Shown here: positions 1 to 6,804 of the stretch, in pieces
How the letters are laid out: the number at the start of each line of letters is the position of its first letter
How positions within the stretch are numbered: the stretch's first letter is position 1
Assembly: GCF_024623785.1 (NCBI RefSeq)
Contig: NZ_JANKBZ010000005.1
Location: 62,001-126,000, forward strand
Direction: 5' to 3'
Source of the DNA: Archangium lipolyticum
Lineage (GTDB): Bacteria > Myxococcota > Myxococcia > Myxococcales > Myxococcaceae
Length of the DNA stretch: 64,000 bases
Made by a program: the position numbers and the translations under genes
Notes under the pieces: model-generated
Database searches by the model: none
Seen by the model: only the letters and a program-made list of their open reading frames with translations
Told to the model about the DNA's origin: nothing

Positions 1-2436
1 CGGGTGTGGGCGGCGAACGAGGCCTACCTGGAGATGCTGGGCCAGGGCCGGGCGCAGGTGGAGGGCCGCCTGTTCCTGGACTTCGTCCGTCCGGAAGACC
101 GGGCGCGTCTGGAGGCGCGCTACCGCAAGCGCGAGGAAGGGGTGCTGAAGGAGTCGGGCCCCCAGCGCTACCTGTTGCCCCGGGCGGGCGGGGGGTCGCT
201 CGAGGTGGCGACCTACGTGCAGGAGGTGGAGCTGGAGGAGAGCGGCCGCGCGATGCTCATCAACCTCCTGGTGCTGGGCGAGCGGCCGGCGGAGCTGGTG
301 GTGGCCGAGCGCCTGGTGGAGACGTCCGCGGAGCTGGTCGCGGCGCGCTCGGAGGAGGCGGTGCGGAGGGTGGCGCTGGCGGGCCTCACGGGCGCGGGGT
401 TCTCCGCGCACTTCCTGGTGCGCGAAGGCGAGCGCTTCGTCATCCGGGACGGAGATGGGGCACTGCCTCCGGAGGACATGGCGCTGGGGCTGCGGGCACT
501 CGCCGAGGGGCGGCCCACTTTCGGGCACCAGCCCGAGTGGGAGTCCAGCCACGTCTACCTCCCCCTGGGCACCACGCTGTCGGAGGTGCTGTGGGTGTCG
601 GGGCAAGGGCTGTCGTCCTCGTACGGCTCGGTGCTGGCGCTCTTCGCCAAGGTGGTGGGCGCCGCGCTCACCGACGCGCGGCTGCTGGCGGAAGTGGAGC
701 GGGGCCGGTTGGAGCTGGGGGCCGTGGCCGAGCTGGCGCGCTTCGTCGCCCAGCCGGAGCCGCCCTCGCCCGAGGCCTTCCTCTCGCGCCTGGCCACGCT
801 GCTCAGCGCGGACGCCGCCCTGCTGTATGCCCCCGAGTCTCCAGAGGGGGAGCTGGTCCTCACGGCGCAGGTGGGACTGGATGGACAGCTGAGCGCCGTG
901 CTCGCCGCGCCGCTCGGAGGCATGTCGCCGTCCCTGGCGGCGGCCCGGGGCGCGGTGCTCTCCAGCGAGGCCGAGGAGGGGGTGTTGATGGAGGCCACCG
1001 GCGGGCGCCTGGGCTGTGGCGCGGCGGTCCGCCTGGCCCATGGTGGCCACCCGCGGGGGTTGCTCCAGGTACTGCGTGCCCCGGGACGCCCCTTCGCCGG
1101 GGGAGATCTGCGGCTGCTGTTCCCACTGTCCGAGCTGATGATGACGCTGCTCGACCAGCGCCGCCTGCGCAGCGAGTCCGCCCGGCAGCTCGCCGATACG
1201 CGCCTGCTGCTGGACCTGGCCCGCACCACCACCGCCACGCTGGAGGTGGCCAGCATCCTGGACGTGGCCTCGGACTTCCTCGTCAAGCTGCTGGACGTCT
1301 CCAACTGCTTCATCCTGCTGCATGACGAGCAGTCGGGAGTCCTGCGCGGCGCCGCCGCCTCCGCCACCCACCGCGACTTCTTCCGCGGCGTGGTGATTCC
1401 GGTGGAGGAGCCCGTGAGCATCGCGGCGCGCGTGGCCCGCGAGCGCCGGCCGTTCGCAGTGCCGGACCTGTCGAAGGTCGCGGAGCTGGCGCAGCGCGAG
1501 CTCGTCCGCCGTTTCGATGAGAAGGCCGTGCTGGCCCTGCCACTCACCTCGCGCGAGGAGCTCATCGGCGTGGTGCTGCTGGACGACACCCGCCGCCCGC
1601 GCACCTTCCCGCCCGCCTTCATCGAGCTGGCCGAGGCCACGTGCGGGCAGATCGCCCTGGCCATCGCCAACGCCCGCCTCTACGAGTCCCTCTGGGCCTC
1701 CTACGCGGAGCTGGCCGCGGCGCGCGCGGAGATGGTCAAGCGCGAGCGCCTGGCCGCGCTCGGCGAGCTGTCCGCCATCGTGGCCCACGAGGTGCGCAAC
1801 CCCCTGGGCGTCATCTTCAACGCCGTGGCCTCGCTGCGCCGCATGATCAAGGCCGAGGGCGACGCGGGCATGCTGCTGGACATCCTCGCGGAGGAGAGCG
1901 ACCGGCTCAACCGCATGGTGGGGGACCTGCTGGACTACACCCGCCCGCGCGAGCCCATGCTGCACCCGGAGGAAGTCCCGCGCGTGCTGCAGGAATCGGC
2001 GGACTCCGCGCGGGCTCAGCAGGGGGGCTCCGGCCGCATCTCCTTCACCGTCGACGCGGACCCGGAGCTGCCGCGGGTGCCGATGGACCGGCGCCTCATC
2101 CGCCAGGCGCTCGTCAACGTGCTCATCAACTCCATCCAGTCCATGCCCCAGGGCGGCCCCATCCAGGTGCGCGCCCGGCGCGAGCCGCATGGCGGCAAGG
2201 ACATGCTGCGCATCGACGTGACGGACCAGGGCTGTGGCATCCCCACCGAGCTCGTCCACCGCGTCTTCGAACCCTTCTTCACCACCAAGGCCCAGGGCAC
2301 GGGCCTGGGGCTCGCCGTGGTCAAACGCATCATCGAGGAGCACCACGGGGAGATTTCCGTGGAGAGTGCTCCGGGCCGTGGCACCACCTTCACCCTCCGC
2401 CTTCCCCTCACCCAGCTGACGACGAGCCTGCCGTGA
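1..2436 (+). CDS. pxrK: sensor histidine kinase, PAS-GAF (5' end cut by window)
   Basis: Hybrid-free sensor kinase that should phosphorylate the response regulator encoded next. The frame is open to base 1, so the true start lies upstream. In order: the end of a PAS domain (residues 1-100 of the visible part), two or three GAF-like domains (about 105-555), a HisKA domain with the H-box AIVAHEVRNPLG (the phospho-accepting His codon is at 1786-1788), and a HATPase domain with DQGCGIP, the F-box EPFFTTK and the G2 box GTGLGLAVV. No transmembrane segment is visible, so it is probably cytosolic. Its TGA overlaps the GTG start of the next gene, which implies translational coupling. The name follows recalled M. 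xanthus synteny (kinase and NtrC-like regulator immediately upstream of pxr); the biochemical class is certain, the name less so. Confidence 0.85.
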   Translation, partial: RVWAANEAYLEMLGQGRAQVEGRLFLDFVRPEDRARLEARYRKREEGVLKESGPQRYLLPRAGGGSLEVATYVQEVELEESGRAMLINLLVLGERPAELVVAERLVETSAELVAARSEEAVRRVALAGLTGAGFSAHFLVREGERFVIRDGDGALPPEDMALGLRALAEGRPTFGHQPEWESSHVYLPLGTTLSEVLWVSGQGLSSSYGSVLALFAKVVGAALTDARLLAEVERGRLELGAVAELARFVAQPEPPSPEAFLSRLATLLSADAALLYAPESPEGELVLTAQVGLDGQLSAVLAAPLGGMSPSLAAARGAVLSSEAEEGVLMEATGGRLGCGAAVRLAHGGHPRGLLQVLRAPGRPFAGGDLRLLFPLSELMMTLLDQRRLRSESARQLADTRLLLDLARTTTATLEVASILDVASDFLVKLLDVSNCFILLHDEQSGVLRGAAASATHRDFFRGVVIPVEEPVSIAARVARERRPFAVPDLSKVAELAQRELVRRFDEKAVLALPLTSREELIGVVLLDDTRRPRTFPPAFIELAEATCGQIALAIANARLYESLWASYAELAAARAEMVKRERLAALGELSAIVAHEVRNPLGVIFNAVASLRRMIKAEGDAGMLLDILAEESDRLNRMVGDLLDYTRPREPMLHPEEVPRVLQESADSARAQQGGSGRISFTVDADPELPRVPMDRRLIRQALVNVLINSIQSMPQGGPIQVRARREPHGGKDMLRIDVTDQGCGIPTELVHRVFEPFFTTKAQGTGLGLAVVKRIIEEHHGEISVESAPGRGTTFTLRLPLTQLTTSLP

Positions 2437-3869
2437 CCGACGCACCCACTCAGCTCTCCCGGGGCCGCATCCTGGTCGTGGACGACCAGCGCAACCTGCG
2501 GACCACCACCGCGCTCCTGCTGCGCTCCGCGCAGTATTCCGTCTTCGAGGCCGCCAACGGCGAGGAGGCGCTCGCGACCCTGGCGAACAACGGGGTGGAC
2601 CTGATGTTGACGGACCTGAAGATGGAGCCGATGGACGGGCTCACCCTCCTCAAGAAGGCGCTGGAGGTCAGCCCGCGTCTTCAGGTCATCATGATGACGG
2701 CCTTCGGCTCCATCGAGAGCGCGGTGACGGCCATGCGCGAGGGGGCGTTCGACTACATCACCAAGCCCTTCAAGGAGAGCGAGCTGCGCCTGCGGGTGGA
2801 GCATGCGCTGGAGCGGGCCCGGCTGCTGGCGGCGGTGGACATGTTCGCCGGTGAGTTCAACGAGCGCTACGGCCTGTCCGCGCTGGTGGGCCGCAGCCCG
2901 GCGATGCAGGAGCTGCAGTCGCGGTTGATCCGCGTGGCGCAGAGCGACGCCACGGTGCTGGTGCAGGGCGAGAGCGGCACGGGCAAGGAGCTCGTCGCCC
3001 GGGCGGTGCACGCGCAGAGCCGGCGCAAGGACAAGCCCTTCGTCCCGGTGAACTGCGCCGCCATCTCCGAGACGCTGTTGGAGAGCGAGCTGTTCGGCCA
3101 CGCCAAGGGGGCCTTCACCGGCGCGGTGCGTGCCCGGCGTGGCCTCGTCGAGGAGGCGGACGGAGGCACGCTCTTCATCGACGAGGTGACGGAGACGACG
3201 CCCGCCTTCCAGTCCAAGCTGCTGCGCACCCTGCAGGAGGGCGAGGTGCGGCGCGTGGGCGAGTCCGTCCCGGTGAAGGTGGACGTGCGCATCGTCGCCG
3301 CCACCAACCGGGACATCGAGCTGGAGGTGCGCGAGAAGCGCTTCCGGCAGGACCTGTACTACCGGCTCAACGTGGTGTCGTTGCGCGTGCCACCCCTGCG
3401 CGAGCGCCTGGAGGACGTGCCGGCACTGGCCGAGCACTTCCTCAAGCGCGCCAACGCCCGCAGCCCGGCGCCCAAGCGCCTGTCGAAGGCGGCGGTGGAG
3501 CACCTGATGAACTACAGCTTCCCCGGCAACGTGCGCGAGCTGGAGAACCTGGTGGAGCAGGCGGCGGCGCTGGCCGAGTCGCCGGAGCTGCTTCCCGAGG
3601 ACTTCCCCGTGCGCCTCGAGGCCCGCGTGGATGCCGCGGGCCCCGTGGGGGCCACGTCCTCAGCCCTGGTGGCGGACACCAGCACCCGGATGCCCACGCT
3701 GGCCGAGGCGGTGGATGATGCCGAGCGCCGGGCGATCGCCCAGGCCCTGGAGCGGCACGGGACGGACCTGGGCCGGGTCGCCGAGGAGCTGGCCATCTCC
3801 TCGACCACGCTGTGGCGGAAGATGAAGCGCCTCAACCTGCGTCCACCCGGGGCCGAACACCGGGACTGA
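2433..3869 (+). CDS. pxrR: sigma-54-dependent response regulator (NtrC family)
   Basis: Bacterial enhancer-binding protein of 478 residues. The receiver domain (12-130) has the acidic pair D17-D18 and phospho-acceptor D61 (LMLTDLKM). The central AAA+ domain has Walker A GESGTGKE, the sigma-54-contacting GAFTGA loop and Walker B GGTLFIDEV. A Fis-type helix-turn-helix lies at the C-terminus (VAEELAISSTTLWRKMKRL). The start is GTG at 2433, overlapping the kinase stop by 4 nt; it places the receiver at the N-terminus as the family requires, and longer frames upstream only read the kinase out of frame. Four sigma-54 promoters begin about 200 nt downstream, so the natural targets are the adjacent small RNAs (inference). 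Confidence 0.93.
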   Translation: MTDAPTQLSRGRILVVDDQRNLRTTTALLLRSAQYSVFEAANGEEALATLANNGVDLMLTDLKMEPMDGLTLLKKALEVSPRLQVIMMTAFGSIESAVTAMREGAFDYITKPFKESELRLRVEHALERARLLAAVDMFAGEFNERYGLSALVGRSPAMQELQSRLIRVAQSDATVLVQGESGTGKELVARAVHAQSRRKDKPFVPVNCAAISETLLESELFGHAKGAFTGAVRARRGLVEEADGGTLFIDEVTETTPAFQSKLLRTLQEGEVRRVGESVPVKVDVRIVAATNRDIELEVREKRFRQDLYYRLNVVSLRVPPLRERLEDVPALAEHFLKRANARSPAPKRLSKAAVEHLMNYSFPGNVRELENLVEQAAALAESPELLPEDFPVRLEARVDAAGPVGATSSALVADTSTRMPTLAEAVDDAERRAIAQALERHGTDLGRVAEELAISSTTLWRKMKRLNLRPPGAEHRD

Positions 3870-3963
3870 GGCTGTACGGGCGATGTCTCCTGCTTCACTC
3901 CTTGTCAGGATTGCAAAGCGTATTCAATCCTGAAAAGCAGAAGTGCCCGGGATGAGGCCAGAT

Positions 3964-3997
3964 TTTCAGATCTGGAAGTGGATTGCAGCGCTGCAAT
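3964..3997 (+). promoter_or_regulatory. candidate enhancer (paired dyads) for RNA copy 1
   Basis: Two inverted repeats of the form TTKCA-N4-TGMAA. The first is TTTCA-gatc-TGGAA (3964-3977). The second is the perfect 16-bp palindrome ATTGCAGCGCTGCAAT (3982-3997). Their centres are 19 bp apart, about two helical turns, and they end 77 bp upstream of the -24 element. This is a typical position for a sigma-54 activator; binding by the adjacent regulator is inferred. Confidence 0.6.
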
Positions 3998-4073
3998 GGC
4001 TGGAGGGGGGGCCTGGGAGGCAGGGGGAATGCTAAGTGCCTGAAATTACTGGCCTCTGAGAGTCTGGGGGCCG

Positions 4074-4089
4074 TGGCATGGCGAGTGCT
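4074..4089 (+). promoter_or_regulatory. sigma-54 promoter of RNA copy 1
   Basis: TGGCATGgcgaGTGCT carries the invariant GG (4075-4076) and GC (4087-4088) with exact -24/-12 spacing. Transcription is predicted to start near 4100. The identical 16-mer precedes all four RNA copies. Confidence 0.85.
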
Positions 4090-4099
4090 AAAGAGAAGA

Positions 4100-4224
4100 C
4101 CCGGAGCACATCGAAGCGAGGCTGAAGGCGGTTCCCCCCCACCCCTTCAGCACTTCCGGTGAGCTTTTCGAGAAGAACCCGCGGCCCGGTATCCTCCATG
4201 AGGGTGCCGGGCCGCCTTCTTTTT
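4100..4224 (+). ncRNA. pxr: Pxr-type small RNA, copy 1
   Basis: Predicted ~125-nt transcript from the -24/-12 promoter to its U-tract. Stem-loop 1 pairs GCTGAAGG (4121-4128) with CCTTCAGC (4144-4151); an inner GGT/ACC pairing presents a loop of U plus seven C (C run 4134-4140). A small stem CTTT-tcga-GAAG follows (4164-4175). Stem-loop 3 is a strong terminator (stem 4181-4215) followed by TTCTTTTT. In M. xanthus, Pxr blocks the start of fruiting-body development while nutrients last; I recall a C-run as the site of the mutation that restores development. Identification rests on synteny, the C7 loop and the architecture, without a covariance search. Confidence 0.75.
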
Positions 4225-4267
4225 GGGGCCTCGGGGCCCGGGTCCTTCTTTCCACTGCTGAAAGCCC

Positions 4268-4302
4268 TTTCACTTCTGCAAAGCGGATTTCAAGATTGCA
4301 AT
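4268..4302 (+). promoter_or_regulatory. candidate enhancer (paired dyads) for RNA copy 2
   Basis: Dyads TTTCA-cttc-TGCAA (4268-4281) and ATTTCA-agat-TGCAAT (4287-4302), centres 20 bp apart, ending 84 bp upstream of the -24 element. A third dyad-like element, TTCA-aggg-TGAA, follows directly. This is the same layout as the other units. Confidence 0.55.
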
Positions 4303-4385
4303 TCAAGGGTGAAAAGCAGGAGGGCGTGCTGGGGTCGAGCGGCGCCAAGTGCCCGGAAGGATTGGCCTTCGAGACCGTCTCCGGC

Positions 4386-4401
4386 TGGCATGGCGAGTGC
4401 T
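4386..4401 (+). promoter_or_regulatory. sigma-54 promoter of RNA copy 2
   Basis: The 16-mer TGGCATGgcgaGTGCT with GG at 4387-4388 and GC at 4399-4400, identical to the other three copies. Start of transcription expected near 4412. Confidence 0.85.
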
Positions 4402-4411
4402 AAAGAGAAGA

Positions 4412-4536
4412 TTCAGAGCACGTCGAAGCAGGCTGAAAGAGGTTCCCCCCCACCGCTTTCAGCGCTTCCGGTGAGCTTCCTGAGAAGAACCCGCGGCCCG
4501 GTATCCTTCATGAGGATGCCGGGCCGCCTTCTTTTT
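4412..4536 (+). ncRNA. pxr: Pxr-type small RNA, copy 2
   Basis: Paralog of copy 1 with the same three-stem plan. Stem 1 here pairs GCTGAAAG (4432-4439) with CTTTCAGC (4456-4463): the G-C pair of copies 1 and 3 has become A-U on both sides, a compensatory change that supports a functional stem. The loop keeps U plus seven C. Stem 2 is CTTC-ctga-GAAG. The terminator stem spans 4493-4527 and is followed by CTTCTTTTT to 4536. Confidence 0.75.
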
Positions 4537-4576
4537 GCGGCTCTGCTCACGGCCCCCGCTGCTCGAGCGGAGTGGT

Positions 4577-4610
4577 TTTCACTTCTGAAAGCGGATTTCA
4601 AAGCTGCAAT
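4577..4610 (+). promoter_or_regulatory. candidate enhancer (paired dyads) for RNA copy 3
   Basis: The perfect dyad TTTCA-cttc-TGAAA (4577-4590) and ATTTCA-aagc-TGCAAT (4595-4610), centres 19 bp apart, ending 84 bp before the -24 element. The third element TTCA-aggg-TGAA is at 4610-4621. Confidence 0.55.
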
Positions 4611-4693
4611 TCAAGGGTGAAAAGCAGGAGGGCGTGCCGAGGCCGAGCGGCGCCAAGTGCCCGGAACGACTGGCCTTCGAGGCCATCTCCGGC

Positions 4694-4709
4694 TGGCATG
4701 GCGAGTGCT
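4694..4709 (+). promoter_or_regulatory. sigma-54 promoter of RNA copy 3
   Basis: Same 16-mer as the other copies, with GG at 4695-4696 and GC at 4707-4708. Transcription start expected near 4720. Confidence 0.85.
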
Positions 4710-4719
4710 AAAGAGAAGA

Positions 4720-4844
4720 TCCGGAGCACGTCGAAGCAGGCTGAAGGAGGTTCCCCCCCACCGCCTTCAGCACTTCCGGTGAGCTTCCTGAGAAGAACTC
4801 GCGGCCCGGTATCCTTCATGAGGATGCCGGGCCGCCTTCTTTTT
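4720..4844 (+). ncRNA. pxr: Pxr-type small RNA, copy 3
   Basis: Third paralog. Stem 1 pairs GCTGAAGG (4740-4747) with CCTTCAGC (4764-4771) around the U plus seven-C loop. Stem 2 is CTTC-ctga-GAAG. The terminator stem is at 4801-4835 with a T-rich tail to 4844. It differs from copy 2 by only a few bases within the transcript. Confidence 0.75.
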
Positions 4845-4873
4845 GGGCCTCGGGGGGCGGCGGAGATGGGCGT

Positions 4874-4908
4874 TTGCACTTCTGCAAGGCGGATTGCAAG
4901 GCTGCAAT
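4874..4908 (+). promoter_or_regulatory. candidate enhancer (paired dyads) for RNA copy 4
   Basis: The perfect dyad TTGCA-cttc-TGCAA (4874-4887) and ATTGCA-aggc-TGCAAT (4893-4908), centres 20 bp apart, ending 85 bp before the -24 element. This is the cleanest example of the TTKCA-N4-TGMAA site. Confidence 0.6.
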
Positions 4909-4992
4909 TCAAGGGTGAAAAGCAGGAGGGCGTGCCGGTGTCGAGCGGCGCCAAGTGCCCGGAAGGACTGGCCTTCGAGCCCCCCTCCGGCT

Positions 4993-5008
4993 TGGCATGG
5001 CGAGTGCT
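4993..5008 (+). promoter_or_regulatory. sigma-54 promoter of RNA copy 4
   Basis: Same 16-mer as the other copies, with GG at 4994-4995 and GC at 5006-5007. The initial transcribed region just downstream is 2 nt shorter than in copies 1-3. Confidence 0.85.
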
Positions 5009-5018
5009 AAAGAAGACT

Positions 5019-5142
5019 CGGAGCACGTCGAAGCAGGTCGAAGGAGGTTCCCCCCCACCGCCTTCAACCGCTTCCGGTGAGCTTCCTGAGAAGAACCCGC
5101 GGCCCGGTATCCTTCATGAGGATGCCGGGCCGCCTTCTTTTT
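5019..5142 (+). ncRNA. pxr: Pxr-type small RNA, copy 4 (divergent stem 1)
   Basis: Fourth paralog and the most altered in stem 1. Here GGTCGAAGG pairs with CCTTCAACC, adding outer G-C, G-C and T-A pairs at the cost of an internal C-A mismatch. The U plus seven-C loop is kept (C run 5050-5056). The second stem and the terminator (stem 5099-5133, T-tail to 5142) are unchanged. The 5' end has a 2-nt deletion relative to the others, so its exact start could shift. It may respond to different partners; that is speculation. Confidence 0.7.
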
Positions 5143-5189
5143 GCGGCTCCGCGGCTCTGCTTCGGCTTCCGATGCCTGTGCGCCCAAAT

Positions 5190-5220
5190 GAAAACGCCCG
5201 GGCGGAAGCCGCCCGGGCGT
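5190..5220 (-). terminator. intrinsic terminator of the nuo operon
   Basis: On the minus strand an 11-bp GC stem (CGCCCGGGCGG / CCGCCCGGGCG, 3-nt loop) is followed by TTTT. It lies just past the nuoN stop, facing the RNA array, so it separates the two convergent units. Confidence 0.85.
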
Positions 5221-5244
5221 CGGTGAATCCAGCGGACTGGGAGC

Positions 5245-6804
5245 TCAGCGGCTGAAGATCGAGCCGGCCTGGACGATCCACTCGCCGACGGGGCCGGGCA
5301 TGATGCCCATCAGCACCACGGCGACGGTGGAGAGCACGAGGGCCAGCTCCGTCATCCAGTTGCGCTCGAGGGTGTGGGCGCCCTCGGGCACGGGCCGCAT
5401 GTACATGTAGACGACCACGCGCAGGTAGTAATAGGCGCCGGCCGCGCTGGAGAGGACGGCGATGATGGTGAGGCCCACGAGGCCCGCGTCCACGGCGGCC
5501 TGGAAGAGGATGAGCTTTCCGATGAAGCCGACGGTGGGGGGGATACCGGCGAGCGACAGCATGAAGGCGGCCATGGCGAAGGCCCAACCTGGCCGGCGCT
5601 GCGCCAGGCCACTGAAGCGCTCGAGATCCCACGCGGTGCCCTTCTCCTCGTCCTCGCGGCGCTCCAGCATGGAGATGATGCCGAAGGCGCCCACCGCGGT
5701 GACGGTATAGGCGAGCAGGTAGAAGAGGATGCTGCGCAGGGCCTGGTTCTGGGCGATGGCCTCGGGGCTGGCGCCCACGAGCGCGGTGGGGCCCAGCAGG
5801 TTGAACTCCTGGCCCGGCTGCGACACGAAGAGGGCAGCCACGCCCAGCATGAGGTAGCCGGCGTGGGCGATGGAGGAGTAGGCCAGCATGCGCTTCACGT
5901 TGCGCTGCGGGATGGCCAGCAGGTTGCCCGCCACCATGGTGAGCAGCGCCAGGGCGGAGAAGAGCGCCAGGGGCAGCTCCGGGCTGATGCCCTTGCTCAG
6001 GACGACGAACACGCGCACCAGGGCCACGAAGGCGGCGGCCTTCACACCGGCGCTCATCAGCGCGGTGACGGGGGTGGGAGCGCCCTCGTACACGTCCGGC
6101 GTCCACATGTGGAAGGGCACCGCGGCCACCTTGAAGGCGAAGCCGGCGGCTACCAGCACCGCGCCCGCGTAGACGAGCGCCGGGTTGACGGTCATCGCGC
6201 TCTTGAGCGGGGCCGCCATGTCGCCCAGCAGCGTGGTGCCGGTGGCGCCGTACAGCAGCGCCGAGCCGTACAGCAGCACCGCCGAGGAGAAGGCGCCGAG
6301 GATGAAGTACTTGAAGCCCGCCTCGCTCGGCCGCGTGCCGCGCCGCAGGTAGGACGTCAGCGCGTACGTGGAGATGGAGAGGACCTCGATGTTGACGAAG
6401 AGCGTGATGAGCTCGTTGGACACGCCCAGCAGGCTCATACCGGCGCCCGCGAAGAGCATGAGCGCGTAGAACTCACCGCGCTCGGCGCCGCGCTTGCGCA
6501 GGAAGCCGGCCGAGGTGAGCGCCGCCAGCCCCACCGACACGCAGACGATGAAGGTGAGGAAGCTGGAGAACGGGTCCAGCACCCCGAAGCCGAGGAACAC
6601 CTCGCGTGGCGGCTCGGCCAGCAGCGACAGCGACACGATGCCCGCGATGACGGACGTGACGGTGGCGAGCACCGCCTGATAGCCGCGCGACGAGGTGGCG
6701 GAGAGGAACACCTCCGACACCAGCAGGATGCACGCTCCCAGCACCAGGATGAGGGCGGGGATGAGCGGCAGGAAGTCCGCCGAGGTGAGGTTGGGAATGT
6801 TCAT
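5245..6804 (-). CDS. nuoN: NADH-quinone oxidoreductase subunit N
   Basis: Antiporter-like, proton-pumping membrane subunit of respiratory complex I, 519 residues and about 14 hydrophobic helices. The family core is visible (YFILGAFSSAVLLYGSALLY, then FKVAAVPFHMWTPDVYEGAP with the conserved lysine and W-PD motif, and KRMLAYSSIAHAGYLMLG). Length fits the family. Last gene of the minus-strand nuo cluster, 15 nt after nuoM, with a terminator directly behind it. The ATG at 6804 is the only start that keeps the first helix without an extra polar leader. Confidence 0.96.
   Translation of the reverse strand: MNIPNLTSADFLPLIPALILVLGACILLVSEVFLSATSSRGYQAVLATVTSVIAGIVSLSLLAEPPREVFLGFGVLDPFSSFLTFIVCVSVGLAALTSAGFLRKRGAERGEFYALMLFAGAGMSLLGVSNELITLFVNIEVLSISTYALTSYLRRGTRPSEAGFKYFILGAFSSAVLLYGSALLYGATGTTLLGDMAAPLKSAMTVNPALVYAGAVLVAAGFAFKVAAVPFHMWTPDVYEGAPTPVTALMSAGVKAAAFVALVRVFVVLSKGISPELPLALFSALALLTMVAGNLLAIPQRNVKRMLAYSSIAHAGYLMLGVAALFVSQPGQEFNLLGPTALVGASPEAIAQNQALRSILFYLLAYTVTAVGAFGIISMLERREDEEKGTAWDLERFSGLAQRRPGWAFAMAAFMLSLAGIPPTVGFIGKLILFQAAVDAGLVGLTIIAVLSSAAGAYYYLRVVVYMYMRPVPEGAHTLERNWMTELALVLSTVAVVLMGIMPGPVGEWIVQAGSIFSR

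Follow-up and report, generated by a model that had tools for sequence, protein, structure and literature searches.

The window analysed here, a 64,000-nucleotide stretch of the genome of the soil bacterium Archangium lipolyticum, contains four tandem genes for the small RNA Pxr at positions 3960-5142, with pxrK-pxrR on one side and nuoN on the other. In Myxococcus xanthus, Pxr restrains fruiting-body development when nutrients are present (PMC5568312, PMC5684412, PMC10217877), and it gates entry into multicellular development. By homology, the window copies would do the same in growing cells, acting by way of their C-rich loop. On our reading, which we consider probable, these would be four separate genes activated by PxrK/PxrR, with leader-closed hairpin RNAs, an old copy 1, and amplified copies 2-4 that raise output. 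Chen, Velicer and Yu described tandem pxr paralogs with their own sigma-54 promoters in Cystobacter violaceus (Archangium violaceum in current NCBI naming) and C. minor (PMC5568312). Because both the tandem paralogs and their functional divergence are in print there, the main inference of a first-pass annotation of this DNA, that paralogs under one activator may tune the start of development by dosage or division of labour, is not new, and the window array is a further, four-copy example of the published situation. The features of the locus are as follows.

4..2436, + strand: pxrK-like sensor histidine kinase (Pfam: GAF, HisKA, HATPase_c; 5' end truncated at the window boundary)
2433..3869, + strand: pxrR, NtrC-type response regulator (Pfam: receiver, sigma-54 activator AAA+, Fis-type HTH)
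3964..3996, + strand: unit 1 enhancer dyads (TTTCAGATCTGGAA, TTGCAGCGCTGCAA; dyad search; position kept in relatives)
4074..4091, + strand: unit 1 sigma-54 -24/-12 promoter (18-mer search)
4100..4224, + strand: pxr copy 1, predicted start to terminator (Rfam match 4114-4223)
4103..4113, + strand: copy 1 leader strand, pairing with 4157-4167 in the region of the former stem-loop 2
4268..4314, + strand: unit 2 enhancer dyads (dyad search)
4386..4403, + strand: unit 2 sigma-54 promoter (18-mer search)
4412..4536, + strand: pxr copy 2 (Rfam match 4426-4535)
4577..4622, + strand: unit 3 enhancer dyads (dyad search)
4694..4711, + strand: unit 3 sigma-54 promoter (18-mer search)
4720..4844, + strand: pxr copy 3 (Rfam match 4734-4843)
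4874..4920, + strand: unit 4 enhancer dyads (dyad search)
4993..5010, + strand: unit 4 sigma-54 promoter (18-mer search)
5019..5142, + strand: pxr copy 4 (Rfam match 5031-5141; 75.4 bits, under the gathering score)
5245..6804, - strand: nuoN, convergent with the array

Scored with RF01812, the Rfam model for Pxr, copies 1 to 4 reached 100.6, 85.5, 88.8 and 75.4 bits. Copies 1-3 exceed the gathering score of 80 bits, which served as the threshold for membership; copy 4 falls below it (E = 7.9e-13) and was assigned to Pxr on the basis of its tandem position and its 92% unit identity to copy 3. No further Pxr copy was found elsewhere in the genome with the same model. All four copies carry stem-loop 1 (SL1) with an identical UUC7 loop (GGTTCCCCCCCACC) and a terminator (GCGGCCCGG...CCGGGCCGCCTTCTTTTT), the latter together with the conserved stem of stem-loop 3 (SL3), and successive loops lie 311, 308 and 297 bp apart. 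In M. xanthus, a C-to-A change in this loop abolishes function, and the conserved SL3 stem is needed for Pxr accumulation. The locus, too, is that of Pxr, between a sigma-54 response regulator and an NADH dehydrogenase gene and with a sigma-54 promoter. From sequence and synteny, we regard the identity as Pxr as solid, and the array would consist of four separately transcribed small-RNA genes. Because one contig spans the array, and four to five copies are also present in congeneric genomes assembled as single contigs, it is not an assembly artefact. What the first-pass annotation had read here was borne out: an array of four units (spacing, promoter, loop and terminator in 4/4), each with an intrinsic terminator and a C-rich loop; their identity as Pxr (the covariance search it had proposed, and synteny); and a kinase and an NtrC-like regulator upstream with nuoN facing (Pfam domains, gene order).

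Each unit also has its own control region. An 18-mer of sigma-54 type (GG-N10-GC), TGGCATGGCGAGTGCTAA, is present precisely four times, at 4074, 4386, 4694 and 4993, as expected from the earlier claim of an identical -24/-12 motif per unit, and no other match with up to three mismatches was found in the 64 kb (chance expectation 0.02). Upstream of every unit's promoter lie two or three dyads of the form TTKCA-N4-TGMAA; allowing up to one mismatch, 14 of the 15 sites in the 64 kb fall within 3903-4920, compared to a mean of 1.2 per whole window in shuffled sequence. Single-copy pxr genes of several other genera have such dyads at similar upstream positions. Since the same type of dyad stands at all four units, we infer that these are PxrR sites and that one activator serves four genes, which supports the common activator that had been proposed. 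PxrK/PxrR would activate each copy through its own dyads and sigma-54 promoter, with transcription predicted to start about 12 nt past the -12 element. The start of pxrR overlaps the pxrK stop, and pxrR orthologs adjoining pxr in distant genera are 71-76% identical. Two extra, weaker dyads were observed between the pxrR end and unit 1 (3903-3916 and 3922-3935). A separate block, CAAGTGCCTGRAA..ACTGG, lies between the dyads and the promoter of every unit (4033-4055, 4346-4368, 4654-4676 and 4952-4974) as well as in single-copy genomes, and is a possible site for a second regulator.

The predicted fold departs from the three-stem RNA that had been proposed. Published stem-loop 2 (SL2; GGUG-AGU-CACC) is broken by non-standard pairs in all four copies and absent from their predicted folds, so the three-stem description fails; the best fold consists of two long stem-loops. 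The SL2 hairpin of the single-copy consensus is thus found in no window copy, and we did not treat it as defining Pxr because it is absent also from the published paralogs Cb.1 and Cb.3. The predicted transcription start lies approximately 14 nt ahead of the point where both the RF01812 model and the 108-nt gene as published begin, and this 5' leader pairs with the segment after SL1, formerly the SL2 region, closing SL1 into one long hairpin (in M. xanthus, leader GACACAUCG with partner CGGUGAGUC). At least six leader bases are paired in this way in the minimum-energy fold of 99 of 100 distinct transcripts.

RNAalifold did not return the leader helix from a plain MAFFT alignment of all 58 sequences, an outcome attributable to register shifts in that alignment, and we therefore used an alignment-free swap test, in which duplex energies were compared for leaders with their own and with permuted partners among 25 divergent representatives. 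The native sum was -379.8 versus -255.6 (sd 14.1) for permuted partners (z = -8.8; 0 of 100,000 permutations as low), so that leader and partner covary across the family. Whole leader and whole inter-stem segments were compared, but the hypothesis came from the same data, the representatives are divergent and not fully independent, and the start site of one was adjusted manually. In a second alignment (A2), of 39 sequences from a closer group, pairing across the helix reaches 87% and double-change cells number 25, versus 10.8 in shuffled controls; sliding the partner by one to three columns reduces pairing to 29-54%. The published SL2 hairpin is 71% paired and gave no covariation signal. Myxococcus-type RNAs are predicted to be able to form either fold. 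We consider the leader helix a well-supported addition to the predicted structure, and it seems to be new, as it is found in neither the published three-stem model nor the Rfam model; the helix suggests that these two models, both starting past the leader, are incomplete. With its first ~14 nt paired to the segment separating SL1 from SL3, the RNA would consist of a long leader-closed hairpin, which exposes the invariant UUCCCCCCCA loop, and of the SL3 terminator. The helix offers a specific, compensable structure for mutation.

To place the array among its relatives, a comparison the first-pass annotation had called for, 195 genomes of the phylum were surveyed. Pxr is present in 93, all within one GTDB family. 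Complete genomes of the window's genus, to which A. violaceum Cb vi76 and A. lansinium belong, carry arrays of four to five copies; a second genus has two to five and a third up to two, and single copies are found in genera that we take to be Myxococcus-, Corallococcus- and Stigmatella-like. A tree built from 43 units unites the first copies of all ten array genomes (94/85) and clusters copies 2 and up by genome or genus. Within single genomes some of the latter are identical (G064 and G092 show two-unit block duplications). This pattern points to one old duplication followed by repeated lineage-specific amplification and homogenisation. From the tree, copy 1 is read as one old orthologous class and copies 2 and up as amplified within lineages. 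Two tandem copies with divergent bodies in another genus (L049-L052, in G068-G071) seemingly represent a separate duplication.

Copies 2-4, as lineage-specific amplifications, would most likely increase the overall amount of Pxr produced, with the switch itself unchanged. That they are homogenised, with copy 1 an old class, fits dosage for copies 2-4 and a possible division of labour between copy 1 and the rest; that dosage is additive is our inference. It is possible, if somewhat doubtful, that labour is in fact divided, class A (copy 1) differing from class B (copies 2-4) in enhancer arrangement, stability or targets, and the two acting at different times or on different genes. The A/B split predates the divergence of Archangium from Cystobacter-type lineages, the enhancer regions of the two classes are only 57% alike, and in M. 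xanthus the published paralogs vary both in how they accumulate and in their effect (PMC5568312). However, the loop is identical in all copies, as are the promoter 18-mers, and the differences lie mainly in the SL1 lower stem, the leader and the SL3 loop. In M. xanthus, second-position paralogs block development while first and third do not, and two of the four published alleles neither accumulated nor blocked development (PMC5568312), so not every copy need be active, a point against the main reading. The series from one to five copies across relatives provides natural material for dosage tests.

The leader may also bear on these transfers. RNase D has been shown to act in the step from Pxr-XL to Pxr-L (PMC10217877); removal of the leader might be the step from Pxr-L to Pxr-S. 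We consider it rather unlikely, taken as a whole, that the leader locks Pxr-L until its removal yields active Pxr-S, that the arrays have lost the SL2 fold, and that failed transfers partly reflect leader mismatch. If this were so, two Archangium paralogs would have failed partly through a foreign, mismatched leader and not through lost function. In the published transfers, foreign pxr bodies minus the first A were joined to the M. xanthus upstream region and therefore carried the M. xanthus leader. Paired in silico with this leader, second copies of Archangium bodies pair best (10.1-10.7 of 13 bases), compared to 7.4-8.1 for first and 8.5-9.7 for third or last copies, in a comparison of A. 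violaceum (first and last copies only), A. lansinium, G061 and G064 made without the exact published alleles. This order matches the reported function of the paralogs, with modest differences that the window copies do not clearly follow, and leader mismatch as an account of the transfer results would be a lead.

It is very unlikely that the extra copies are decaying or are mere titration sites for PxrR and sigma-54, even though copy 4 has the lowest score and, in M. xanthus merodiploids, a second promoter copy has been proposed to reduce Pxr-L (PMC5684412). Copies 2-4 are mutually 91-92% alike. When they are compared together with copies 2-4 of the relative G065, identity is 0.97 for the promoter, 0.88 for the leader, 0.89 for SL1, 1.00 for the leader partner, 0.99 for SL3 and 0.86 for the enhancer dyads (UAS), versus 0.37-0.59 in three of four spacers and 0.73 in the fourth. 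RNA-level features are therefore as conserved as promoters, and a decoy would need no leader, SL1 or SL3; regulatory and transcribed parts conserved among mostly unconserved spacers are what one sees when genes are maintained, in contrast to repeats that decay. That the repeats encode protein, as mechanical ORFs of 153 and 227 aa crossing the units might suggest, can practically be dismissed, since neither 311 nor 308, two of the unit spacings, is divisible by three, so that the frame shifts between copies, changes follow base pairing, and terminators lie inside the ORFs.

Vibrio Qrr small RNAs (four to five copies) are under one NtrC-type activator (LuxO) and sigma-54; their genes are dispersed and Hfq-dependent. 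They resemble the array in being several similar small RNAs, a comparison made in PMC5568312, where Qrr-like additive or divergent roles of pxr paralogs are discussed, but are unrelated to Pxr in sequence. The arrays of C. violaceus, of the same genus as the window, and C. minor share the locus between pxrR/nla19 and an NADH dehydrogenase gene and the separate sigma-54 promoters; three copies were reported there compared to four here, and SL2 is lost in some of those copies whereas it is broken in all of the window's. The single-copy M. xanthus pxr (RF01812) shares the loop, SL1, the SL3 terminator, the sigma-54 promoter, enhancer dyads, regulators and nuoN, but keeps the SL2 alternative and is adjoined by pxrA, which the window has lost.

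The GNAT-like pxrA is a proposed Pxr target in M. xanthus (PMC11928866). It lies directly after the array in three other relatives and is absent from this genome (window 5143-5244, between array and nuoN) and from G064 and G065, which also have arrays; we therefore rejected it as an essential target. When sequences preceding ATG were searched for GGGGGGGAA, the complement of the loop, the result was a class III nucleotide cyclase gene that has GGGGGGGAAGGAG, complementary to the Pxr loop, at its ribosome site (L119 1501-1524; G000:C9:80965-80988). The site is kept in five of six genomes of the genus and in one MAG, is not family-wide, and makes the cyclase a lead only as a candidate target.

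Three small-genome relatives (L059, L060 and L061, in G143-G145; 2.1-2.7 Mb) retain pxr with a C6 loop, near nuoN in L060, where this was checked. No pxrR ortholog was found in them (best matches 41-46%), so that in these lineages, which may not form fruiting bodies, Pxr would lack the regulator it usually has. In G140 and G141 (L072 and L091), pxr has no clear sigma-54 motif but a sigma-70-like TTGTCA element instead, and G140 has no pxrR ortholog (best match 46%), pointing to a possible switch of promoter class.
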